Shown here: positions 52,246 through 63,942 of the stretch, piece after piece | Numbering within the stretch: position 1 is the first letter of the stretch | How the letters are laid out: the number at the start of each line of letters is the position of its first letter | DNA from: Octadecabacter algicola | Lineage (GTDB): Bacteria; Pseudomonadota; Alphaproteobacteria; Rhodobacterales; Rhodobacteraceae | NCBI RefSeq assembly: GCF_021532625.1 | Contig: NZ_JAKGAR010000001.1 | Location: forward strand, 744,001 to 808,000 | Length of the DNA stretch: 64,000 nt | Direction: 5' to 3' | Notes under the pieces: generated by a model | What the model was told of the DNA's origin: nothing | The model's database searches: none | Seen by the model: only the letters and a program-made list of their open reading frames with translations | Program-made: the position numbers and the translations under genes

Positions 52246-52842
52246 ATGCTTGTATTTGCAAAAGAAAAGCTGGTTTTTCTGGCCTTACCCAAGACAGGAA
52301 CGACCGCTTTGGAAAGTGTTCTAGAACCACAAGCCGCGATGGTGATGCGCAAGGCTCCGAATCTAAAACACACTCCAGGGTATCGATATGACAAATATCT
52401 AAAGACCTATCTTGAGAAATGCGGGCTAAAGAATCTGCAAACCGTTTGCGTCGTGCGCCACCCCGTTGACTGGCTTGGCAGTTGGTATCGGTACCGCGCA
52501 CGCCCCGCGAAAGACGGCAGTTCCAACAGTACCAAAGACATAAGCTTTGAGGCGTTTGTCGCTGAATTTGCGGCCGATGATCCTGCTGAGTGGGCACGCG
52601 TCGGGCATCCACCACGTTTCATTCGCGACAACAACGGGCGCGTTGTGGTTGATCATTTGTTTCAGTACGAACAGATGGATCTGCTGGTGGATTTCCTTGA
52701 GGGCCGACTAAAGACAACGATCACCCTGCCCCAGCGCAATGTCTCTCCGCCCAACGACATGACGTTGAGTGCTGCTACAACCGCGCGGCTTGAGGCCAAG
52801 CACGCGCAGATGTTTGAAGATTGGGAAAACGCGCGCCGTTAG
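52246..52842 (+). CDS. Sulfotransferase-family protein
   Basis: A 198-residue protein. The PAPS-binding 5' loop is LALPKTGTTALESVL, and the 3'-phosphate site is VCVVRHPVDWLGSWYRYR. It is shorter than typical sulfotransferases (about 250-300). The acceptor is unknown. It stands alone; its stop overlaps the convergent ABC ATPase stop by 3 bases. Confidence 0.85.
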   Translation: MLVFAKEKLVFLALPKTGTTALESVLEPQAAMVMRKAPNLKHTPGYRYDKYLKTYLEKCGLKNLQTVCVVRHPVDWLGSWYRYRARPAKDGSSNSTKDISFEAFVAEFAADDPAEWARVGHPPRFIRDNNGRVVVDHLFQYEQMDLLVDFLEGRLKTTITLPQRNVSPPNDMTLSAATTARLEAKHAQMFEDWENARR

Positions 52843-53897
52843 TAGTTGCGCGTACCGTCATCTGACGACACGCGCGGCACGAGGGCACGCACAAGGGCCG
52901 TCATGTCCAGCGTTCCGACCGTTTCGTCACCATCTTTGACGACATAAGCGTGGGATGTATCCCCGCCGGACCGCGCAATCATACTTTCCAGCGTGTCATC
53001 GACATCCACGTCACCGTGGGCGTCATCTGGCACTGCCCCATCGCTGAGAGGCGTCATGACAGATCGCACCCTCAACACCCGCGCGCGGTTAATGTCGCTA
53101 ACGAAGTCTTCGATGTAGGGATCGTTGGGGTTCAGCAGGATGTGTTGTGGTTCACCCTGCTGAACAACATAACCGTCCTTCAGGATCACAAGGTGGTCCG
53201 CCAGCTTTAGCGCCTCGTCCAGATCGTGGGTGATAAAGATGATCGTCTTGTGCAGTTCCTTTTGCAATTCAAGCAACAAGTCCTGCATGTCGGTGCGGAT
53301 CAGCGGATCAAGGGCTGAGAACGCTTCGTCCATCAACATAATATCCGTGTTGGCAGTTAGCGCACGGGCAATTCCGACACGTTGTTGCATGCCGCCTGAC
53401 AACTGAGCCGGATAATGGTTTTCAAACCCCGCAAGGCCCACACGGTCCAGCCACTTGGTGGCTTCACGGTTGCACACCTCGGCATCTTCGCCGCGCACAG
53501 ACAAAGGCATCCCTGCGTTTTGCAGCACGGTTTTATGCGGCAAGAGTGCGAACTTCTGAAACACCATCGACATCTTTTGCTGGCGTACCTCACGCAGGCC
53601 TGTTTCAGATAGCTGCATGACGTCTTCGCCTTGGACGATAATCTCACCAGCTGTAGGTTCGATCAATCGGTTCAAGTGACGAATGAGTGTCGATTTGCCG
53701 GACCCTGACAGACCCATCACGACGGTGATTTCACCCGCCTGCATATCAACATTGATGTCATTCAAGCCCAGTACATGTTTGTGCTCAGCAAGAAGTTCTT
53801 CTTTACCCATGCCGTTTTTCACATGATCCATGACGGACGCGCCGTCTTGACCGAAGATTTTGTAAACCCCTCGAAGGCTGACCATTGGTTCTGTCAT
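52839..53897 (-). CDS. Glycine betaine/choline-type ABC transporter ATPase
   Basis: A 352-residue ATPase of the ProV/OpuAA class. Walker A is GLSGSGKST, signature LSGGMQQRVGIARAL and Walker B IMLMDEAFSALDPL; the N-terminal segment YKIFGQDGASVMDHVKNGMGKEELL is class-specific. A C-terminal CBS-like regulatory region (about 270-345) probably senses ionic strength. It lies last in the operon, after the permease. Confidence 0.92.
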   Translation of the reverse strand: MTEPMVSLRGVYKIFGQDGASVMDHVKNGMGKEELLAEHKHVLGLNDINVDMQAGEITVVMGLSGSGKSTLIRHLNRLIEPTAGEIIVQGEDVMQLSETGLREVRQQKMSMVFQKFALLPHKTVLQNAGMPLSVRGEDAEVCNREATKWLDRVGLAGFENHYPAQLSGGMQQRVGIARALTANTDIMLMDEAFSALDPLIRTDMQDLLLELQKELHKTIIFITHDLDEALKLADHLVILKDGYVVQQGEPQHILLNPNDPYIEDFVSDINRARVLRVRSVMTPLSDGAVPDDAHGDVDVDDTLESMIARSGGDTSHAYVVKDGDETVGTLDMTALVRALVPRVSSDDGTRNY

Positions 53898-53909
53898 GAC
53901 GTCAGCTCC

Positions 53910-54938
53910 TTAGTGTTTGACGTGAGTCATATCGACCCGCGAGAGTGCAGCTTTGGACACACGATCAAGGATCACAGCCAAAAGAACGATGCCAATACCG
54001 GCAACGATCCCGACACCCAGTTCAAGGTTTCGAATACCGCGCAACACGTTGACGCCAAGTCCTGGGGCCGACACCAGCGAGGCAATAACGACCATCGCCA
54101 GGCTCATCATGATGGTTTGGTTCACCCCTGCCATGATATTGGGCAAAGCCAAGGGCAGTTGAACACGCATCAGTTTTTGTTTGGAATTCATACCGAACGC
54201 ATCCGCTGCCTCGATCACGTCTTGATCAACCAGCCGAATACCAAGGTCCGTCAGGCGGATCACTGGCACGATGGCATACAGGATAATTGCAATCCCGTAG
54301 AGCTTGGATTCCGTCACCGAGAACAAGAAGATCAGCGGGATCAGGTAAACAAAGGTCGGTAAGGTCTGCAAAAGATCGAGCACAGGGACAGTAAACTTTT
54401 GTAATCGATCGGATTTGGACATAGCGATGCCTATGGGCACCCCAAGCAGAACCGATATCGTCGTACAGACAAAGATGATGGATAGCGTCTGCATCGCAAC
54501 ATCATAGTGATCCACCAGCCCTAGCAACATGATCGCCACGAAGACAAAGATCGTCACAGGTTTGGATCGCGACGCATACCAAGAAATGCCGACCAACACT
54601 GGGATCATGATGAACCATGGGGTCGCTTCAAACAGCCACAGCGCACCGTCCAGCATCCAGCTGAGTGGTTGGGTCAGCGGGTCCAGTACAGATTTTAGAG
54701 CAGGTTTGGCGGCCAGAAAGCCGTCCTCGATACCTTTTGTGACATCGCGCGATTGAAGGATCGCGCTGCAACTTTCGTTCAGGTTATCAAGCGAGGGAAA
54801 TGGGAAGAACGGGCCAGATGCCGCGTCTCCACTGGCTTGCGCCATCAAATCCGCCATTGATAACGGCGCGCCTTCTCCGGCCACACCGCACCAATTGCTC
54901 AGACCTAAGGTCTCGAATAATTTATCGTAAAACGCCAT
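53910..54938 (-). CDS. Glycine betaine/choline-type ABC transporter permease
   Basis: A 342-residue permease of the ProW/OpuAB type. It has a long cytoplasmic N-terminal segment and about seven spans (IPVLVGISWYASRSKPVTIFVFVAIMLLGLV and onward), with an EAA-like loop (ADAFGMNSKQKLMRVQLPLALPNIMAGVNQTIMMSLAMVVIASLVSAPGLG) that contacts the ATPase. ATG 54938 with GGGGA upstream is preferred to the frame start at 54965. Confidence 0.92.
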   Translation of the reverse strand: MAFYDKLFETLGLSNWCGVAGEGAPLSMADLMAQASGDAASGPFFPFPSLDNLNESCSAILQSRDVTKGIEDGFLAAKPALKSVLDPLTQPLSWMLDGALWLFEATPWFIMIPVLVGISWYASRSKPVTIFVFVAIMLLGLVDHYDVAMQTLSIIFVCTTISVLLGVPIGIAMSKSDRLQKFTVPVLDLLQTLPTFVYLIPLIFLFSVTESKLYGIAIILYAIVPVIRLTDLGIRLVDQDVIEAADAFGMNSKQKLMRVQLPLALPNIMAGVNQTIMMSLAMVVIASLVSAPGLGVNVLRGIRNLELGVGIVAGIGIVLLAVILDRVSKAALSRVDMTHVKH

Positions 54939-54963
54939 GCTGTCCCCGTCCCCTGGATAAAGC

Positions 54964-54993
54964 AAAACCCCCCGCCGATTTTTCGACGGGGGG
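54964..54993 (-). terminator. Intercistronic hairpin after the binding-protein gene
   Basis: On the minus strand an 11-bp stem (CCCCCCGTCGA / TCGGCGGGGGG, one G-U pair) is followed by TTTT. It sits between the binding protein and permease genes and would favour expression of the binding protein. Confidence 0.75.
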
Positions 54994-55004
54994 CTCTTAG
55001 TAAT

Positions 55005-55979
55005 TTAGTCTAGCAGAGCAGACAGACGCTCTTTGGCCGCGTCGTCCAGCCAGTCAGCCCAAACATCTTTGTAGTTGGTCAGGAAGTAGACCGCAGCCTC
55101 ATCGTAGGACGCGTTATTGTCCAAGCGCCATGCGAGAACTTCACCCATCTGTTCGTTGGTGAAGGAAACGTTTGCCATCAATGCAGCCGCTTCTGGCTCA
55201 CGATCGGGGAAACCGTTCGCAACAGCTGTAACAACTTTGGATGCCGGATACGCAGAGAACACAGGGCTCGCGCAGTCTGGATCGCCGTTACATGTGTGGC
55301 CTTCTTCGTCGTAGGCAGGCACTTCGACGGCAACCATTGGGTATTTGCCCAGCACCGCTGTCGGCGCCCAGTAGTAACCGAACCATGGTGCTTCTTCGTC
55401 GAATGCAGCCGCGATGGATGTCTGCAGCGTCTCACCCGAACCGTGCTGGAAACGCTCGATGCCAGCTTCCTCTGCGCCAGCGGCGATCAGGTTGTTGTTG
55501 TTGATGATGTCGCAAGCCCAGCCCGACGGGCAATCGTGGAACTTACCACCAACGAGGTCAGGGTTAGCGATGATGCCTTCCCATGTTGTCAGCTCTGGGT
55601 TGGATTCAGCAAGGTATGCAGGGATCCACCATGCTTCGACGCCGCCGTCGGACAGAACGTCTGCCAGTTCGATCAGCTTCCCTTCTTCCAACAGGCCTTC
55701 ATAGGCTGGTGTGGAGTTCGCCCAAACTTCGGTCAGAATGTCAGGCTCGCCTGTTTCAGTGATCGATGTGATCGCTGTCACTGTAGAGGACGGGATCTTT
55801 TGAACGTCACAGCCGTAGCCTTGCTGAAGCAAGAATGCGGAAACGGCAGTTACAACAGCGGACGATGCCCAATCCATTTCTGTAATCGTGACTTCACCGC
55901 ACTCTGCATAGGCAGCAGAGCTGGACGTCATGAGGGCGGCAACGGCCGCGCCTTTGAGAAGGTTTGTCTTGAGTGTCAT
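55005..55979 (-). CDS. Glycine betaine/choline-type substrate-binding protein
   Basis: A 324-residue periplasmic protein with a Sec signal (MTLKTNLLKGAAVAALMTSSSAAYA). The OpuAC-type body (ECGEVTITEMDWASSAVV) has aromatic residues suited to a quaternary ammonium ligand (EAWWIPAYL, APWFGYYWAP) and a cysteine pair (HTCNGDPDCAS). Betaine, choline, or DMSP are possible ligands; sequence alone does not decide. AGGAGAC precedes ATG 55979. It heads the operon and is divergent from an Rrf2 regulator. Confidence 0.92.
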   Translation of the reverse strand: MTLKTNLLKGAAVAALMTSSSAAYAECGEVTITEMDWASSAVVTAVSAFLLQQGYGCDVQKIPSSTVTAITSITETGEPDILTEVWANSTPAYEGLLEEGKLIELADVLSDGGVEAWWIPAYLAESNPELTTWEGIIANPDLVGGKFHDCPSGWACDIINNNNLIAAGAEEAGIERFQHGSGETLQTSIAAAFDEEAPWFGYYWAPTAVLGKYPMVAVEVPAYDEEGHTCNGDPDCASPVFSAYPASKVVTAVANGFPDREPEAAALMANVSFTNEQMGEVLAWRLDNNASYDEAAVYFLTNYKDVWADWLDDAAKERLSALLD

Positions 55980-56138
55980 AGATCGTCTCCTAGTTGAACG
56001 TATTGTTTTTCTTGATCGTTTTTGTCTAGCAGCGTTCATAACATGGGAATTCAGCGGGCGCGACCCTTTCTTCCGAGAGCGATTGATTGCCAAAGAAACA
56101 TCCCTCATATAGCTTTATTGCCTGCAACAGGACGCACT

Positions 56139-56600
56139 ATGAAACTTACCAGTTACACCAACTACGCCCTGCGCGCGCTTCAGCTCGCGGCGATTAAATC
56201 CCCTAATCTTGTGCGTGTGGATGACGTTGCTACGATCCATTCTCTTTCTCGGCCTCATATCACAAAGATCGTCCATGAACTTGGCAAGTCTGGCTATCTT
56301 GAAACGGTCAGGGGGCGTGGCGGCGGGTTTCGGTTGGCGCGGGCGCCAACCGAAATCGTCGTCGGTGATGTTGTGCGGATCACCGAAGGCCCGCTTGACG
56401 TGGTCGAATGTTTTAATCCTGAGAAAAACACCTGTGTCTTAAGGGGTGTTTGTATTTTGTCGCGCAAATTACAAGAGGCTACCGCCGCATTCATGGCCGT
56501 CTTGGATGATCTTACGATTGCGGATATTTCCGCTAACAAGGGGCAGTTGCTTGATCGGATAGCCCCGCTTGAAACACCGGATCAAAAGGTTGCTCAATAA
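56139..56600 (+). CDS. Rrf2-family regulator, NsrR-like
   Basis: A 153-residue regulator beginning MKLTSYTNYALRALQLAAIK, with wing VRGRGGGFRLARAP and three cysteines in ECFNPEKNTCVLRGVC, the pattern that holds an Fe-S cluster in NsrR. NsrR senses nitric oxide; other Rrf2 proteins sense redox or sulfur state. ATG 56139 fits the family start. It overlaps the start of the Crp/Fnr gene (TAATG) and so heads the sulfide island. It is also divergent from the betaine transporter, which it might affect. Confidence 0.88.
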   Translation: MKLTSYTNYALRALQLAAIKSPNLVRVDDVATIHSLSRPHITKIVHELGKSGYLETVRGRGGGFRLARAPTEIVVGDVVRITEGPLDVVECFNPEKNTCVLRGVCILSRKLQEATAAFMAVLDDLTIADISANKGQLLDRIAPLETPDQKVAQ

Positions 56601-57271
56601 TGGATGCTCAAACGGATTGGGTGGAACGCTTCCCTGGCTTATCGCGGCTGGAACCGTCCGTAAAACAGCTCTTAACGAACCGCAGTGTGATCATCGACGT
56701 ACCCGAAGGCGTAACCTTGTTCGGGCCCAAGAACTCACCCGAGAACATGTTGTTTCTTTTAGATGGCACGGTTCGGGTACAACAGGTGTCCGAAACGGGG
56801 CATGAAATCGTCCTATACCGCATTCAAGCAGGTCAAAGCTGCGTTCTGACGACGGCTTGCCTTTTGGCTTATGAAGATTACGCAGCGGACGGCATTACAG
56901 AGACCCCTGTTCAAGCAGCAGCCGTTCCGCGCGATGTCTTTGATGATCTTGTGGCGCAATCAAAGTCATTTAGGGATTTTGTGTTCGCGGCCTTTTCTAA
57001 ACGCATCACCGATCTGTTCCGCATGATCGACGAGGTTGCATTTCAACGGATCGATGTTCGTCTAGCCGACAGGTTGCTTAGCCTTGCCGGAAGCGACGAC
57101 GTGGTAAAAACGACCCACCAAAAACTATCCGTCGAACTTGGCACTGCGCGTGAAGTCGTGTCGCGCCAGTTGCAAGAATTTCATCGTCGAGGCTGGATCG
57201 ATCAAGCACGCGGCAGTGTTACCCTATTGGATGTGGACCAACTAAAACGCTTGGCCAAACATAACATTTAA
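56600..57271 (+). CDS. Crp/Fnr-family regulator with paired cysteines
   Basis: A 223-residue protein with a cyclic-nucleotide-binding-type fold (about 10-120) and a C-terminal HTH (KLSVELGTAREVVSRQLQEFHRRGWI). It lacks the Fnr N-terminal cysteine cluster. Two cysteines, Cys81 and Cys87 (SCVLTTAC), sit in the sensing domain and could be a thiol or persulfide switch; that is inference. It is co-transcribed with the Rrf2 gene and precedes the sulfide genes, so it probably controls them. Confidence 0.88.
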   Translation: MDAQTDWVERFPGLSRLEPSVKQLLTNRSVIIDVPEGVTLFGPKNSPENMLFLLDGTVRVQQVSETGHEIVLYRIQAGQSCVLTTACLLAYEDYAADGITETPVQAAAVPRDVFDDLVAQSKSFRDFVFAAFSKRITDLFRMIDEVAFQRIDVRLADRLLSLAGSDDVVKTTHQKLSVELGTAREVVSRQLQEFHRRGWIDQARGSVTLLDVDQLKRLAKHNI

Positions 57272-57287: not shown

Positions 57288-57302
57288 GGTGACAATATCA
57301 CC
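57288..57302. promoter_or_regulatory. Candidate Crp/Fnr-type operator before the sulfide genes
   Basis: GGTGA-CAATA-TCACC is a perfect 5-bp inverted repeat 55 bases before the DUF2892 start, in the 86-base gap after the Crp/Fnr gene. The half-site resembles those bound by this regulator family, though the spacing differs by one from classical sites. Confidence 0.5.
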
Positions 57303-57323: not shown

Positions 57324-57333
57324 TATTCAGAAT
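57324..57333. promoter_or_regulatory. TATTCAGAAT element before DUF2892
   Basis: The palindromic core ATTC-A-GAAT lies 24 bases before the DUF2892 ATG. The identical 10-mer recurs at 63979-63988 near the window end. Confidence 0.45.
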
Positions 57334-57357: not shown

Positions 57358-57570
57358 ATGACCGCAAATATTGGCACGATTGATCGTGTATTCCGCTTCG
57401 TCCTAGGCGTTGTCTTGGTCTTGGCCCCATTCGTAAGTGGGATGGCCCTTTTTGCATCCACACCCGCGACTGTCATCTCAGTGATTGTTGGCATCGTGAT
57501 GCTTGCAACGGCTTCCATGCGGTTTTGCCCGCTGTACCGCATCTTCGGCATTCGGACGTGCCAGCGATGA
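57358..57570 (+). CDS. DUF2892 (YgaP membrane-domain) protein
   Basis: A 70-residue protein with two spans and the family pattern NIGTIDRVFRFVLGVVLV... MRFCPLYRIFGIRTC. The same domain forms the membrane part of YgaP sulfurtransferases and often stands alone in sulfide clusters. GTAGGAG precedes the ATG. Its TGA overlaps the start of the next gene (ATGA). Confidence 0.9.
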   Translation: MTANIGTIDRVFRFVLGVVLVLAPFVSGMALFASTPATVISVIVGIVMLATASMRFCPLYRIFGIRTCQR

Positions 57571-58001
57571 TTGAAACTGCATTCACACCTTTTCAATCCC
57601 TTGGTGGCGGTGTCCTGATTGGCCTTGCGTCAGTTCTGCTGATGGCAACCGTCGGGCGCATCATGGGCGCAACCGGTATTCTTGCGGGATTCATGCAGCC
57701 CTCCAGTATGTCCGATTGGTCTTGGCGCGCGGCGCTTCTGGCTGGAATGGTCAGCGGCCCTCTTGCTGTGATGCTGGTTACCGGCAGCATGCCTGCGGTT
57801 CAGGTGCCCGTTTCGACGCTCATGCTTGTTGTTGGAGGCTTTCTTGTCGGCATCGGCGTGACGTTCGGGGCTGGCTGTACGTCTGGTCACGGCGTCTGCG
57901 GCATGGCGCGGCTTTCGCCCCGCTCAATCGCAGCGACCATCACCTTTATGATTACGACTGCGATCACCGTCTATGTGATCCGTCACGTCCTAGGAGCATA
58001 A
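57567..58001 (+). CDS. YeeE/YedE-family sulfur transport protein (PmpA-like)
   Basis: A 144-residue membrane protein with about four spans. The key motif FGAGCTSGHGVCGMARLSPRS carries conserved cysteines that bind thiosulfate or persulfide in TsuA/YeeE. It forms a pair with the following protein, each being about half a YeeE. Coupled to DUF2892 by ATGA; 3 bases to the next gene. Confidence 0.9.
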   Translation: MIETAFTPFQSLGGGVLIGLASVLLMATVGRIMGATGILAGFMQPSSMSDWSWRAALLAGMVSGPLAVMLVTGSMPAVQVPVSTLMLVVGGFLVGIGVTFGAGCTSGHGVCGMARLSPRSIAATITFMITTAITVYVIRHVLGA

Positions 58002-58004
58002 CCC

Positions 58005-58436
58005 ATGCGTATGATTACTGTTTATTTGATCGGTTTGGTTTTTGGCATCGGGATTTCGATTTCCGGCATGGCAAACCCTGCCAAGGTGCTGAACTTCTTT
58101 GACTTTGCAGGCACTTGGGACCCAAGCCTTGCATTCGTCATGGGGGGCGCTGTGGTTGTTGCCTTTATCGGCTACCGCTTTGTGCTCAAGCGTCCTGCAC
58201 CGATCATGTCCGAACGGTTTATGTTGCCAACACGCAGCGACCTTGATGCTAAGCTGATCGGTGGCTCGGCCTTGTTTGGGGTTGGCTGGGGAATTGCCGG
58301 GTTCTGCCCGGGTGGCGCCCTGCCCGCGATTGGCACTGGCAACAACAACGTCCTGATCTTCATGGCAGCGCTTGTCGCTGGGATATTCGCAGCCAAGGCG
58401 CTGCAATCCATGAATACAACCAAACAGGCCGCGTGA
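58005..58436 (+). CDS. YeeE/YedE-like half transporter (DUF6691, PmpB-like)
   Basis: A 143-residue membrane protein with the second conserved motif, FGVGWGIAGFCPGGALPAIG, which holds the other functional cysteine. It likely assembles with the preceding protein to conduct a sulfur anion. Its TGA overlaps the ATG of the next gene (TGATG). Confidence 0.9.
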   Translation: MRMITVYLIGLVFGIGISISGMANPAKVLNFFDFAGTWDPSLAFVMGGAVVVAFIGYRFVLKRPAPIMSERFMLPTRSDLDAKLIGGSALFGVGWGIAGFCPGGALPAIGTGNNNVLIFMAALVAGIFAAKALQSMNTTKQAA

Positions 58437-59038
58437 TGAACTGGCTCACCAACAGCCCCGTTCGCAATGGCGCTGCTTTGGTGGCCGTCGTTGGTCTAGG
58501 TCTTGGCGGGGCTCATCTTGCCTCGTCAGACCAAGCTGCAAGGCATCACGACCGCATGATGAACAATCATGTGCATGATGGCGCAGGTCATGATGAGGTC
58601 ACGATGCCAGGATTGCGCGGCGAAAACGCCAGCCCGCAGGAAAGTGCAGAACTTGAGGTGCTGTTTCGCAACTTTGACACGATCACGCGCGAAGTCGAAA
58701 ACTTGCCAAATGGCATCCGTACGGTCACGCGTTCTTCGGACCAGACCGTGATGGATCACTTGGTGAACCACGCCGTTGGCATGATTGATCGGGTCGGCCA
58801 GATGGACGACCCAAAGATCAGAATACAAAGCCCTACGCTGGATATCTTCTTTCTGCGTGGGGACCGGATCCTTTCTTATATCGAGATGACCGACGATGGT
58901 TTGATCATTACTCAGACATCAGAAGATCCAGAGATAGTGGCGGCCCTACAGACACACGCCGCCGAAGTGACCGCAATGTCCGATCACGGCATGCAAGCGG
59001 TGCACGAAATGATGATGGAACGCGGGATCAGCCACTAG
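58436..59038 (+). CDS. Membrane-anchored protein with internal duplication, unknown function
   Basis: A 200-residue protein with an N-terminal anchor or uncleaved signal (about 9-30: NGAALVAVVGLGLGGAHLA), a His/Met-rich segment (RHHDRMMNNHVHDGAGHDE) that could bind metal, and two related halves: LFRNFDTITREVENLPNGIRTVTRSSD and FFLRGDRILSYIEMTDDGLIITQTSED. It probably resides in the periplasm. I recall similar proteins near sulfur genes but cannot name a function. Confidence 0.75.
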   Translation: MNWLTNSPVRNGAALVAVVGLGLGGAHLASSDQAARHHDRMMNNHVHDGAGHDEVTMPGLRGENASPQESAELEVLFRNFDTITREVENLPNGIRTVTRSSDQTVMDHLVNHAVGMIDRVGQMDDPKIRIQSPTLDIFFLRGDRILSYIEMTDDGLIITQTSEDPEIVAALQTHAAEVTAMSDHGMQAVHEMMMERGISH

Positions 59039-59080: not shown

Positions 59081-59962
59081 ATGACTTATCCAATCGACCT
59101 GTCCGTCAAACCTGATGTTTCGGCACATTTTGACGAAATGACCAACACGATTACCTACATCGTGAAAGACCCAAACAGCGATCATTGCGCCATCGTCGAT
59201 AGCGTCATGGATATCGATTACGCTGCGGGCCGGATCACGTATGAAGCAGCCGACCGCCTGATCGAAGAAATCAATTCCCGCGGCCTGACTGTGGACTGGA
59301 TCATCGAAACGCACGTCCACGCTGACCACCTAAGCGCGGCCCCCTACCTGCAATCCAAACTCGGCGGCAAAATCGGCGTCGGTGAAAAAATCATGGTCGT
59401 GCAAGAAACATTCGGCAAAGTCTTCAACGAAGGCACCGAATTTGAACGCGACGGATCCCAATTTGATGCGCTGTTCAAAGACGGCGACACTTATATGATC
59501 GGATCGATGCAGGCGTTCGCAATGTATACGCCGGGTCACACACCCGCATGCATGGTGCATGTAGTTGGTGATGCGGCCTTTGCGGGTGACACATTGTTCA
59601 TGCCTGATGGCGGTTCTGCGCGTGCGGATTTCCCGGGCGGTGATGCGGCCACGCTTTATGATAGCATCATGAAGGTTCTGTCCTTACCGGATGAAACACG
59701 CCTGTTCATGTGCCACGACTATGGCCCGAACGGTCGCGCGATCGAGTGGGAAACCACTGTTGCACAGCAAAAAGCGGAAAACATCCACGTTGGTGGCGAC
59801 AAAACCCGCGAAGATTTCATCAAGTTCCGCACTGAGCGCGATGCCCAGCTGGCCATGCCAAGGCTGATCATCCCGTCCCTGCAGGTGAACATGCGTGCTG
59901 GCGAAGTTCCAACGGATGAAGACGGTAACCCGATGCTCAAAGTTCCGGTCAACGCGCTCTGA
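59081..59962 (+). CDS. MBL-fold persulfide dioxygenase-like protein (Blh)
   Basis: A 293-residue metallo-beta-lactamase-fold enzyme. Metal ligands lie in THVHADHLSAAPYL, TPGHTPACM, AFAGDTLFMPDGG and CHDYGPNGR. It resembles the Blh/ETHE1 group that oxidises glutathione persulfide to sulfite. The ATG at 59081 has GGAGA upstream; ATG 59066 is an alternative. It would act after the SQR encoded downstream. Confidence 0.92.
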   Translation: MTYPIDLSVKPDVSAHFDEMTNTITYIVKDPNSDHCAIVDSVMDIDYAAGRITYEAADRLIEEINSRGLTVDWIIETHVHADHLSAAPYLQSKLGGKIGVGEKIMVVQETFGKVFNEGTEFERDGSQFDALFKDGDTYMIGSMQAFAMYTPGHTPACMVHVVGDAAFAGDTLFMPDGGSARADFPGGDAATLYDSIMKVLSLPDETRLFMCHDYGPNGRAIEWETTVAQQKAENIHVGGDKTREDFIKFRTERDAQLAMPRLIIPSLQVNMRAGEVPTDEDGNPMLKVPVNAL

Positions 59963-59987: not shown

Positions 59988-60479
59988 ATGACAAACAGTA
60001 CAACGATCGAAAATCTCAACAAAGCACTTCAGATGGAGATGACTGCGTCTCATCAATATCAGCTCCATGCGCATGTGCTCGACGATTGGGGCCTTGATAA
60101 ACTGGCAACGAAGATGCGCGAAGAGCAAGCCGAGGAAATCGGCCACTCTGACCTGTTCATCGAACGTATCCTGTTTCTGAAGGGTGATCCGGAGATTGCC
60201 TTTTCGAACCCGCCCAAACGCGCAGGCAACTTGATTGAGATGTTTAAGGCCGATTTGGCGGACGAAACAGAAGCTGTGGAGTTCTACCTCAAGGCTGCAA
60301 GGCAGGCCTATGACGAGAATGACGTCGGCACACGCACCTTGTTTGAAACCATCGCTCTTGATGAAGAAGGCCATAAAGCGTGGCTCGAGCTTCAGCTCGA
60401 ATTGATCGAACGCTTGGGTGAAAAAGCCTACAGCGCAAAACTTGTCTCGGGCCCCATGGTTGGCAACGAAGACGTTTGA
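59988..60479 (+). CDS. Bacterioferritin-type ferritin lacking the haem methionine
   Basis: A 163-residue four-helix protein of the Bfr family (QMEMTASHQYQLHAHVLDDWGL). Ferroxidase ligands are present: Glu17, Glu50, His53 (EEIGHSD), Glu93, and Glu126/His129 (LDEEGHKAW). The methionine that binds haem in Bfr (E. coli Met52) aligns with Ile51, so a haem-free form is expected. It would store or oxidise iron. AAAGGAGA precedes the ATG. Confidence 0.9.
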   Translation: MTNSTTIENLNKALQMEMTASHQYQLHAHVLDDWGLDKLATKMREEQAEEIGHSDLFIERILFLKGDPEIAFSNPPKRAGNLIEMFKADLADETEAVEFYLKAARQAYDENDVGTRTLFETIALDEEGHKAWLELQLELIERLGEKAYSAKLVSGPMVGNEDV

Positions 60480-60501: not shown

Positions 60502-62175
60502 ATGGACCTCAGAACCCTTACGGCGACCCTGTCGGTCAGCCCGCAAATCTTGCCGTCCGATCTTAAGGCGATCAAAGACGCCGGATACCGTGCAGTCATC
60601 TGCAACCGTCCCGACGGCGAAGGCGCAGACCAGCCAACCTTTGAAGAGATTTCTAAGGCCGCCAAAAAGCTGGGGCTTGAGGCTGCTTATCTTCCAATCG
60701 TTGCAGGTAAAGTGTCCGACGATGATGCTTCGGACTTTGACACCGCAATGAACACCCTGCCCGGCCCGGTGCTTGCCTATTGCCGAACTGGTACGCGATC
60801 CGCGACGTTGTGGTCCTTGTCACAAGCTGAACAACGCAGCGTTGCTGACATTCTCGCGGCAACCAAAGGTGCTGGCTATGACATGGGCGGCGTTGTGCGC
60901 CGCATCGTCAATGGCGGCAAAACGCCAACTGATACAGGCGACGCAAGTTATAGCGTCGTGATCGTTGGGGCCGGTGCTGGCGGCATTGCCGCGGCCGCCA
61001 GCCTGAAGTCCCGTAAGCCGGAGCTTGAAATCGCTATCATCGACCCTGCTGACATTCACTACTACCAGCCCGGCTGGACAATGGTAGGAGGTGGTATTTT
61101 TGACCCCGAAGATACATCCCGCACCTTGGGGTCCCTGATCCCAAAGGGCGTTCACTGGATCAAATCAGCGGTTGCCGCGTTTGAACCGGAAAACAATGCT
61201 GTAGTTTTGGATGGGTGCCGAGTGGTGAAATATGATCGCCTGATCGTCTGTCCTGGTATCAAGCTGGATTGGAACAAGATCGAGGGCCTTGTCGAAACAC
61301 TTGGTCAGAACGGCGTGACATCGAATTATCGTTACGATTTAGCACCTTACACGTGGAAGCTCGTGGAGGGCATGAAAGAAGGTCGCGCGATCTTTACGCA
61401 GCCACCGATGCCAATCAAATGCGCCGGCGCACCCCAAAAAGCGATGTATTTGTCCGGTGACGCATGGCATCGCCGCGGCGTTCTGAACAACATCGACATT
61501 CAGTTCAACAATGCGGGTGGCGTGCTGTTCGGGGTAAAGGATTATGTTCCAGCCTTGATGGAATACGTCGAAAAATATGACGCCTCGCTGAACTTCTTCC
61601 ACAACCTTGTAGCAGTTGATGGCGCCGCCAAGAAGGCATGGTTTGATGTCTCCAAGCCGGACACTCCAGTTGAGCGTGTCGAGATGGAGTTTGACATGAT
61701 GCATGTCTGCCCACCGCAGACAGCGCCTGACTTTATCCGCGTTTCGCCTTTGGCCGATGCAGGCGGCTGGGTCGATGTCGATCAAGCCACACTGCGCCAC
61801 AAGACCTATGACAACGTCTGGTCCTTGGGTGATGTGATGAACGCGCCGAATGCAAAAACCGCAGCGGCAGCGCGCATTCAGGCGCCTGTTGTGGCTGACA
61901 ATGTCATTTCGGACATCAACGGCGGCAACCCTGTTGCGCAATACAACGGCTATGGCTCCTGCCCGCTCACGGTTGAACGCGGCAAGATCGTCTTGGCTGA
62001 ATTCGGCTACGGCGGCGTTATGCTCCCGAGCTTTCCAAAGTTCATCGTAGACGGCACGAAGCCAAGCCGCGCGGCGTGGTTCCTAAAAGAAAAGATGCTG
62101 CCTCCGATCTATTGGAAAGGCATGCTGAAGGGCCGTGAATGGATGGCGAAACCCGAAAAAATCGTCGCCAAGTAA
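60502..62175 (+). CDS. DUF442-sulfide:quinone oxidoreductase fusion (type II SQR)
   Basis: A 557-residue fusion. Residues 1 to about 140 form a DUF442 (TIGR01244) domain, with loop C94-RTGT-R99 as in rhodanese-like or dual-specificity phosphatases. Residues 148-557 form an SQR: FAD motif VVIVGAGAGG, and the two catalytic cysteines of SQOR in PIKCAGAPQKAMYL (Cys307) and GYGSCPLT (Cys487). It oxidises sulfide and reduces quinone, passing sulfane sulfur to an acceptor; the fused domain may take that sulfur. GGAAGG precedes ATG 60502. Confidence 0.93.
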   Translation: MDLRTLTATLSVSPQILPSDLKAIKDAGYRAVICNRPDGEGADQPTFEEISKAAKKLGLEAAYLPIVAGKVSDDDASDFDTAMNTLPGPVLAYCRTGTRSATLWSLSQAEQRSVADILAATKGAGYDMGGVVRRIVNGGKTPTDTGDASYSVVIVGAGAGGIAAAASLKSRKPELEIAIIDPADIHYYQPGWTMVGGGIFDPEDTSRTLGSLIPKGVHWIKSAVAAFEPENNAVVLDGCRVVKYDRLIVCPGIKLDWNKIEGLVETLGQNGVTSNYRYDLAPYTWKLVEGMKEGRAIFTQPPMPIKCAGAPQKAMYLSGDAWHRRGVLNNIDIQFNNAGGVLFGVKDYVPALMEYVEKYDASLNFFHNLVAVDGAAKKAWFDVSKPDTPVERVEMEFDMMHVCPPQTAPDFIRVSPLADAGGWVDVDQATLRHKTYDNVWSLGDVMNAPNAKTAAAARIQAPVVADNVISDINGGNPVAQYNGYGSCPLTVERGKIVLAEFGYGGVMLPSFPKFIVDGTKPSRAAWFLKEKMLPPIYWKGMLKGREWMAKPEKIVAK

Positions 62176-62229: not shown

Positions 62230-63942
62230 ATGAAACCTGATCTGACACGCTACTTCCCCATTTTAACATGGGGGCGGACCTATGATCGTTCTGCCCTGTC
62301 CAATGACCTTGTTGCGGCCTTGATCGTTACGATCATGCTGATCCCACAGTCGTTGGCCTATGCACTTTTGGCGGGTTTGCCTGCCGAAGCAGGTCTCTAC
62401 GCGTCGATCGTTCCGATCCTGCTATATGCGGTGTTTGGAACCAGCCGCGCTTTGGCTGTTGGGCCTGTTGCCGTTGTTTCGTTAATGACGGCCGCAGCGC
62501 TTAGCAACATCGTCGAGCAAGGCACCATGGGTTACGGCGTTGCTGCGCTGTCTCTGGCGGCATTGTCGGGCATCATCTTGTTGGCAATGGGGCTTTTCCG
62601 GCTCGGGTTTATTGCGAACTTCCTGTCTCACCCTGTCATTGCTGGGTTTATCACCGCCTCGGGGATCATCATCGCTGCCAGCCAGCTCAAGCATATCCTC
62701 GGGATTGATGCACATGGTCACAACCTGCTTGATATCGTGGTGTCATTGGTTGCCCACCTGCCAGAAATCAACTGGATCACCACGATTATCGGTGTCCTCG
62801 CAACGGGCTTCCTGTTTTGGGTGCGCAGCGGGCTGAAACCTCTTCTGGTTCGCATTGGCCTTTCCAGCGGATTGACTGGTGTGCTGGTCAAGACGGGACC
62901 CGTAGCCGTTGTTGTAGTTACCACCCTCGCAGTTTGGCTGTTCGGCTTGGCGAACTTTGGCGTCAAAATCGTTGGTGAAGTCCCTCAAAGCCTCCCGCCA
63001 TTGACCCTCCCCTCATTCTCACCGGCCCTGATCGGTCAGCTGCTTGTGCCTGCATTCTTGATTTCCATTATCGGCTTCGTTGAATCGATCTCTGTGGCGC
63101 AAACCCTTGCGGCCAAAAAACGTCAGCGCATTGATCCTGACCAAGAACTCATCGGGCTTGGTGCGGCCAACATCGGCGCATCCCTGACGGGCGGCTTCCC
63201 TGTAACGGGCGGGTTCTCCCGTTCTGTGGTGAACTTCGATGCCGGTGCTGAAACACCTGCCGCTGGTGCCTTTACCGCCATTGGTTTGGCAATCGCCGCT
63301 CTGGCCCTGACGCCGTTGATTTATTTCCTGCCCAAGGCAACATTGGCTGCGACAATCATTGTCGCCGTGCTCAGCCTCGTGGATTTCTCAATCTTGAAAC
63401 GCAGTTGGGACTACTCAAAGGCGGACTTCGCAGCGGTACTAGCGACGATCCTGATGACCCTCTTGGTTGGTGTAGAAGTTGGCGTTTCTGTTGGTGTTGG
63501 CCTGTCGATCCTGCTGCACCTTTATAAGACATCACGCCCCCATATTGCCGAGGTGGGCCAAGTCCCGGGCACTGAACACTACCGCAATATTCTTCGTCAT
63601 GACGTCATCACCGATCCAAGTGTTGTAACCCTACGGGTAGACGAGAGTCTTTATTTTGCGAACGCACGCTATCTTGAAAACAAGATCCACAACCGCGTTG
63701 CGGGCGACAAAGGCATCCGTCACGTGATCCTGCAATGCGCTGCGATAAATGAGATCGATTTCAGCGCGTTGGAATCCCTTGAGGCGATCAACGAAGCGCT
63801 CAATGAGATGGACGTCAAACTGCACCTTTCCGAGGTCAAAGGCCCCGTCATGGACAGGTTGGAAGGTGGGCATTTCTTATCAGAACTGACTGGTAAAGTA
63901 TTCTTGTCCCAATTCGATGCCGCCAAAGAACTCGCCACCTGA
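62230..63942 (+). CDS. SulP-family anion transporter with STAS domain
   Basis: A 570-residue transporter. The first half has the SulP signature AYALLAGLPAEAGLYASIVPILLYAVFGTSRALAVGPVAV and later GGFPVTGGFSRSVVN. Residues about 440-560 form a STAS domain (LRVDESLYFANARYLENKI). It could export sulfate or sulfite, or import sulfate. It is the last gene seen in the sulfide island. Confidence 0.93.
   Translation: MKPDLTRYFPILTWGRTYDRSALSNDLVAALIVTIMLIPQSLAYALLAGLPAEAGLYASIVPILLYAVFGTSRALAVGPVAVVSLMTAAALSNIVEQGTMGYGVAALSLAALSGIILLAMGLFRLGFIANFLSHPVIAGFITASGIIIAASQLKHILGIDAHGHNLLDIVVSLVAHLPEINWITTIIGVLATGFLFWVRSGLKPLLVRIGLSSGLTGVLVKTGPVAVVVVTTLAVWLFGLANFGVKIVGEVPQSLPPLTLPSFSPALIGQLLVPAFLISIIGFVESISVAQTLAAKKRQRIDPDQELIGLGAANIGASLTGGFPVTGGFSRSVVNFDAGAETPAAGAFTAIGLAIAALALTPLIYFLPKATLAATIIVAVLSLVDFSILKRSWDYSKADFAAVLATILMTLLVGVEVGVSVGVGLSILLHLYKTSRPHIAEVGQVPGTEHYRNILRHDVITDPSVVTLRVDESLYFANARYLENKIHNRVAGDKGIRHVILQCAAINEIDFSALESLEAINEALNEMDVKLHLSEVKGPVMDRLEGGHFLSELTGKVFLSQFDAAKELAT

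Follow-up and report, generated by a model that had tools for sequence, protein, structure and literature searches.

The gene at 56600-57271 (+) of the window, by which we mean the whole 64,000-nucleotide stretch of Octadecabacter algicola DNA analysed here, encodes a Crp/Fnr regulator that is best explained, taken as a whole, as a class II activator of sulfide and persulfide oxidation that responds to sulfane sulfur (or to thiol redox state) through Cys81 (C81), a reading to which we give a probability of about 0.6. Predicted control of the sulfide operon by this protein is well supported and highly probable, and the protein very probably switches this neighbouring detoxification operon on through a distinctive DNA site. 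The narrower proposal that C81 itself reads sulfane sulfur is favoured with modest confidence. In the alignment of relatives, it is one cysteine (C81), not a pair, that defines the family, though window-type proteins have both C81 and C87.

The 223-aa protein is encoded by a single open frame and combines a cNMP-binding domain (residues 34-120, PF00027) with a Crp-type HTH (residues 154-218, PF13545), both over the cut-offs. This cNMP-type beta-roll and HTH, together with the computed fold match to the best solved relative, 3DV8 (Crp/Fnr EUBREC_1222 of Eubacterium rectale; profile E 1.7e-43, fold Z 18.5), place it in the Crp/Fnr superfamily, and none of the NCBIfam equivalogs fits it, the best matches lying far under their cut-offs. 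FNR-type sensors have four cysteines, all but one of them in an N-terminal cluster. The original prediction had named two cysteines six positions apart, at 81 and 87, and no Fnr-type N-terminal cluster, and it was right on both counts: these are the sole cysteines of the frame, which sets the protein outside the FNR-type [4Fe-4S] sensors, and a family-wide test likewise excluded an Fnr-type cluster. The host genome holds three proteins above the cNMP-binding cut-off and one weak match, and a search of viral contigs for relatives of the protein returned none. The gene and the elements around it are as follows.

56139..56600 (+): Rrf2-family regulator, RirA/NsrR-like, with C-x7-C-x5-C of the Fe-S type (PF02082 E 9.9e-34; NCBIfam RirA 120.6 bits, under the cut-off of 193)
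56600..57271 (+): Crp/Fnr regulator with Cys81 and Cys87 (open frame, Pfam domains, cysteine count)
56840..56842 (+): Cys81 codon, invariant, within a two-residue insertion
56858..56860 (+): Cys87 codon; retained in 122 of 152 C81 proteins, with Gly in another 22
57149..57166 (+): HTH recognition helix R184-E185-V-V-S188-R189; R184, E185 and R189 invariant, S188 93%
57288..57302 (+): predicted operator GGTGACAATATCACC (GTGAC-N3-[G/A]TCAC), a conserved palindrome between crp and the sulfide operon
57324..57329 (+): predicted -10 element TATTCA, lying 21 nt past the operator and with TGC before it

The Rrf2 stop and the crp start share one base (TAATG), and the Rrf2 gene is co-transcribed with crp here and in a minority of relatives; it is an optional partner, found beside 12 of the 97 close relatives of crp (group A, defined below). 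The gene had also been expected to lead a sulfide cluster. The genes downstream do form such a cluster, but crp is the second gene and not the first, and the sulfide operon has a conserved promoter region of its own, after the crp stop. On the other side of the Rrf2 gene and pointing away from it, 52839-56108 (-) holds genes for an ABC ATPase, a permease and a substrate-binding protein, which by eye resemble a glycine betaine/proline transporter. The sulfide operon comprises eight genes:

57358..57570 (+): YgaP-like membrane protein (DUF2892/PF11127; PF11127 E 3.9e-21)
57573..58001 (+): YeeE/YedE-type sulfur transporter half (PF04143 E 2.5e-8)
58005..58436 (+): DUF6691, second YeeE-type half (PF20398 E 1.6e-45)
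58433..59038 (+): 201-aa protein of unassigned family (no Pfam or NCBIfam match), by eye with an N-terminal membrane anchor and a His-rich stretch
59081..59962 (+): metallo-beta-lactamase close to the persulfide dioxygenase part of Blh (PF00753; NF040641 368.9 bits over positions 140-423)
59988..60479 (+): bacterioferritin/ferritin-like protein (PF00210 E 2.6e-30)
60502..62175 (+): DUF442 sulfurtransferase-SQR-like flavoprotein fusion (PF04273, PF07992; TIGR01244 above cut-off; type III SQR model E 3.9e-59)
62230..63942 (+): SulP-family anion permease with STAS domain (PF00916, PF01740; TIGR00815 above cut-off)

The metallo-beta-lactamase lacks the DUF442 part and for this reason falls under the NF040641 cut-off of 625. 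The 201-aa protein was seen again at two other loci (L063, L204).

Relatives of the regulator were gathered from 198 genomes of the family, 289 of the class and 349 of the phylum, together with GTDB contigs and plasmids. Group A is the window type, with C81 and C87; group B (L152-L170, L209, L210) is a Rhodobacterales clade, fully supported, that carries Gly87 and the motif GQSC[IV]QTTLGLLG; and group C contains distant relatives, including those from Bacteroidota and Bacillota, most of which have both cysteines. Sulfide genes, counted as MBL, SQR or YeeE genes of at least 50 bits no more than 6 kb away on the crp strand, adjoin 75 of 97 group A genes, none of 21 in group B, 3 of 12 in group C and none of 18 control Crp genes, counts that are uncorrected for shared ancestry. 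The most constant neighbour over groups A, B and C and the Gammaproteobacterial loci is the DUF2892 gene. A Bacteroidota plasmid relative with 27% identity and the C81 motif lies among genes for rhodaneses, thioredoxin reductase, TauE, MBL, YeeE and DUF6691.

CRP reads GTGA half-sites through R-E-x-x-x-R, and the GTGA half-site of the predicted operator and the R184-E185-x-x-x-R189 helix would agree with CRP-type recognition. Operators were counted as GTGAC-N3-GTCAC with at most one mismatch, with dinucleotide shuffles as the control. Such a site was found at 77 of 97 group A loci, 17 of 21 group B loci and 12 of 20 further loci but at none of 18 control Crp loci, against shuffle expectations of 0.8, 0.1, 0.1 and 0.1, respectively. 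Other spacers from N0 to N8 were almost absent, except for N4 in some group B and Gammaproteobacterial loci. Within group A, GTGA-N5-TCAC occurs at 74 of 97 loci, compared to 1 of 97 for GTGA-N6-TCAC and 3 of 97 for TTGA-N6-TCAA; the usual CRP/FNR-type spacing was rejected for group A sites on the latter two counts, and the spacing of the window group is one base shorter than is usual for CRP/FNR sites. The usual CRP spacing, GTGA-N6-TCAC, occurs in 5 of the 20 further loci (L290, L292, L294, L295, L297).

Among close relatives in group A, 61 of 66 have a TA dinucleotide 21 or 22 nt past the 15-mer, and this TA, as expected of a -10 element, places the centre of the palindrome near -41 of the inferred transcription start. 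A centre near -41 is the position of a class II activator, as for CRP and FNR. Activation rather than repression is suggested by this operator position, relative to a start that was itself placed by inference. Two other roles for the palindrome were rejected: that of a crp terminator, since its location tracks the operon rather than crp and since a predicted -10 element, not a T-run, follows at a fixed distance, and that of an Rrf2 operator, since it is present in most loci without an Rrf2 gene. Outside the family, the TGA stop of crp forms part of the left half-site in L283, L284, L285, L287 and L289 (GTGACAATATCAC). Upstream of crp, where autoregulation would be expected to leave a site, none was found above chance. 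In the host genome the only intergenic exact site is the one before the sulfide operon; every other exact site is internal to a long open frame, so that the operon is probably the sole direct target there.

The computed link between operator and regulator is clearest where the operon lies apart from crp. In these cases (L071, L095, L100, L101, L108, L193, L291, L293) the site precedes the operon and does not follow crp. In L071 it is 5.6 kb upstream of crp; in L101, L108, L100 and L095 the distance is 2.2 to 6.1 kb on the downstream side; L193, L291 and L293 have it in the divergent gap. The SQR fusion is held by 49 of the 198 genomes, which provided the basis for a natural-experiment comparison: a site directly before the SQR operon was found in 14 of 15 genomes with a C81/C87 Crp but only 1 of 25 without (Fisher p = 9e-9, on by-eye counts uncorrected for shared ancestry). 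The sole site-bearing genome without such a Crp (L323) encodes a group B protein. The site is also retained at the SQR operon when crp is distant, at 8 kb (G186), 19 kb (G055), 106 kb (G187) and 600 kb (G128). A predicted operator at the SQR/SDO promoter would give this regulator the control over sulfide and persulfide genes that characterizes the reactive-sulfur sensors SqrR/BigR, CstR and FisR.

Conservation of the two cysteines was computed across the relatives. In the first alignment, C81 was present in every member of the subfamily, with a two-residue gap at this place in more distant Crp/Fnr proteins; its column was invariant among 20 sequences of 34-79% identity and was one of a small number in the subfamily that are fully invariant. 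In the larger set, C81 occurs in 152 of 170 aligned proteins; of the 18 without it, 17 have a gap and one (L180) has Thr. It is thus found in 152 of 153 relatives that retain the motif segment, at identities of ~25 to 97%. The C81/C87 pattern is far above chance. Of the 152 C81 proteins, 122 also have Cys at residue 87, 22 have Gly there and the other 8 have Ser, Ala, Tyr, Leu or Phe; a tree built without the motif columns indicates that C87 was lost at least nine times. The original prediction was to fall if the cysteines proved unconserved among homologues; C81 passed this check, and the two-cysteine form failed it. A second check, whether both cysteines are kept only in proteins next to SQR genes, turned out otherwise, with C87 absent from several proteins beside SQR/SDO genes (L094, L151, L208). 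The raw association of C87 with SQR is strong (Fisher p 9e-9, uncorrected for shared ancestry), but it rests on one clade (group B, with Gly87), and none is seen in pairs of relatives on separate branches. SqrR/BigR, CstR and FisR typically have two or more conserved thiols that form di- to tetrasulfide links; a conserved pair is not a feature of this family, since C81 alone is invariant. Because C87 is dispensable and has been lost even beside SQR, a disulfide or tetrasulfide between C81 and C87 cannot serve as a mechanism for the family at large; judged from these alignments, a sensor centred on C81 can.

Gene context and chemistry point to persulfide as the likely signal. A dimer of the regulator would bind GTGAC-N3-GTCAC near -41 and activate sigma-70 RNA polymerase in the class II manner. 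Sulfide oxidation by SQR would raise GSSH and polysulfide, from which C81 would take up sulfane sulfur to become a persulfide; in window-type proteins this persulfide would probably react on with Cys87 to give a di- or polysulfide, a step that cannot be essential given the lineages without C87. The modified C81 would shift the dimer to its DNA-binding form, and SQR, the dioxygenase and the YeeE and SulP carriers would then remove the signal.

Group B bears on how specific this signal may be. It is a single-cysteine Rhodobacterales paralogue, about as widespread by number of genomes as the window type, in which a lone DUF2892 gene lies behind the same kind of operator. A role for group B as an SQR regulator elsewhere in the genome was considered and rejected, because a uvrA gene and a valine/acyl-CoA catabolism cluster are shared by position only and DUF2892 is the sole functional link. 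As these proteins (C81, Gly87) would control a DUF2892 gene only, with SQR not nearby, persulfide need not be the sole possible signal. An unlikely but wider alternative is that C81 is a general thiol-redox or electrophile switch that senses peroxide, disulfide stress or hypochlorite through sulfenylation or S-thiolation, with the sulfide operon as one output. Invariance confined to C81 and the coupling of C81 with DUF2892 alone in group B would suit such a switch, as would a peroxiredoxin gene adjoining the Paenibacillus relative, another near the Chelativorans relative, and the sensitivity of a mutant of the Porphyromonas gingivalis relative PgRsp to peroxide and aerobic stress (PMC6955866). 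Nevertheless, the targets of group A are mostly sulfide-oxidation genes, no classical peroxide gene recurs among them, and the only intergenic exact site of the host genome precedes the sulfide operon, all of which speaks against such a switch.

The phosphate-binding cassette of cAMP-dependent CRP contains Gly-Glu and Arg-Ser/Thr. When the protein is aligned to cAMP-binding Crp proteins, the motif segment occupies the position of this cassette, with Thr84-Thr85 in place of Gly-Glu, Tyr94 in place of Arg and Ala95 in place of the next Ser/Thr, and C81 falls within a two-residue insertion immediately before it. The NCBIfam CRP model gives 36.7 bits against a cut-off of 266, and the protein does not belong to the cAMP-dependent CRPs; by this alignment, the cAMP contacts are lost, and C81 and C87 are located at CRP's cAMP-phosphate site. 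The AF2 model has a mean pLDDT of 84 but only ~55 at residues 81-90, where the motif is poorly determined; at that local confidence, C81 would be at the N-end of a short helix (83-90). A thiol at a helix start is commonly activated. R74, Y73, Y94 and E101 are conserved around the motif and could make a binding site, and ligand binding at this place is usual for Crp proteins. The protein might accordingly be gated by a non-covalent small molecule (e.g., sulfite, thiosulfate, a GSH derivative or a nucleotide) in a remodelled pocket, with C81 structural or in contact with the ligand. We consider such gating improbable: the cAMP contacts are missing, and a reactive thiol, as in the C81-centred reading, is the simpler account of an invariant Cys in a cytosolic ligand pocket beside persulfide enzymes.

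CooA-type sensors have Cys/His heme ligands and an N-terminal Pro/Ala ligand, and CooA Cys75 and His77 presumably fall in the same stretch of the fold as C81. It is conceivable, if very unlikely, that C81 ligates heme or another metal as a thiolate, as Cys75 does in CooA, with CO, NO, O2 or H2S on the metal as the signal. The CooA ligands Cys75/His77 (PMC6955866), heme binding by the distant relative PgRsp, and co-transcription of an NsrR/RirA-type Rrf2 gene here all lend this some weight. Compared to CooA-type sensors, a Cys is present nearby but, in a view limited to sequence, no His or Met is conserved in the sensor domain across the 152 relatives; moreover, the Cys76Ala change in PgRsp left heme binding unchanged, and the Rrf2 partner accompanies only 12 of the 97 group A genes.

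Among characterized proteins, 3DV8 has a C-x5-C (CLLSASC) at the same place as C81/C87. It differs in having ~24% identity and in coming from Bacillota, and no function or target of this protein is reported in the literature found; since its structure exists, the sensing site is open to inspection at once. PgRsp, a Crp/Fnr protein outside the named families with a redox phenotype, was modelled on 3DV8 (PMC6955866) and may be the nearest studied protein. Its Cys76-x-Met78 matches the CxM seen in Bacteroidota relatives, L147 among them, a likeness of spacing and not a sequence alignment, from which we infer that Cys76 is the equivalent of C81. PgRsp is reported to bind heme in a manner for which Cys76 is not needed, and no link to sulfide genes is reported (PMC6955866). 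Thiol regulation within the same fold is also represented by CprK of halorespiration, which is described as disulfide-regulated in vitro (PMC2610375). CprK resembles the window protein in combining the Crp/Fnr fold with thiol regulation, although its primary signal is a chlorophenol ligand. The cysteines of CprK are at positions other than those of C81 and C87. CrpK of R. sphaeroides has no Fe-S cysteines and is described as overlapping the FnrL regulon (PMC4344238).

So far, sensing of sulfide and persulfide in bacteria has been attributed chiefly to repressors of the ArsR and CsoR types, to the sigma-54 activator FisR, and to several regulators of MarR and other types. The ArsR proteins SqrR/BigR control SQR and persulfide-dioxygenase genes through a dithiol that reads sulfide or polysulfide (PMC5823870, PMC9774590), and BigR loses DNA binding upon formation of the Cys42-Cys108 disulfide. 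They are functional counterparts of the window protein with another fold, being repressors released by a Cys-Cys disulfide or tetrasulfide, whereas the Crp has an activator-type predicted site and an optional second Cys. CstR (CsoR) is a repressor, while FisR is a sigma-54 activator that turns on sulfide-oxidation genes in response to reactive sulfur species (PMC9774590); as a sigma-54 enhancer-binding protein with three sensing cysteines, FisR differs from the Crp in both fold and promoter type. The open-access literature yielded no description of a Crp/Fnr protein as a persulfide or sulfide sensor, an absence that is weak evidence of novelty. If persulfide sensing is borne out, this would be the first Crp/Fnr member shown to sense persulfides, and a new ligand chemistry (a thiol instead of cAMP) would be added to a well-studied gene-regulation fold. 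It would also explain how SQR/SDO operons are switched on in many marine Rhodobacterales and sulfur-oxidising Gammaproteobacteria without a neighbouring BigR or SqrR, and the predicted operator can be used for regulon mapping. By sequence likeness, the branch belongs to Alpha- and Gammaproteobacteria, and relatives of it occur in Bacteroidota and Bacillota; C81 proteins are present in all four. That this widespread, unnamed Crp/Fnr branch as a whole senses reactive sulfur through one invariant cysteine of the former cAMP pocket, activating sulfide and persulfide genes from an operator one base shorter, is a more tentative proposition, which we place slightly below even odds.

The host genome also encodes, ~14 kb past the end of the window (C7:822229-822564; L298:16229-16564), an ArsR protein with C42 and C108 as in SqrR/BigR/SoxR. 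Its gene is divergent from sox-like genes and adjoins a YeeE-type transporter gene, so that sulfur regulation in the Octadecabacter algicola genome seems to be divided between two proteins of different folds.
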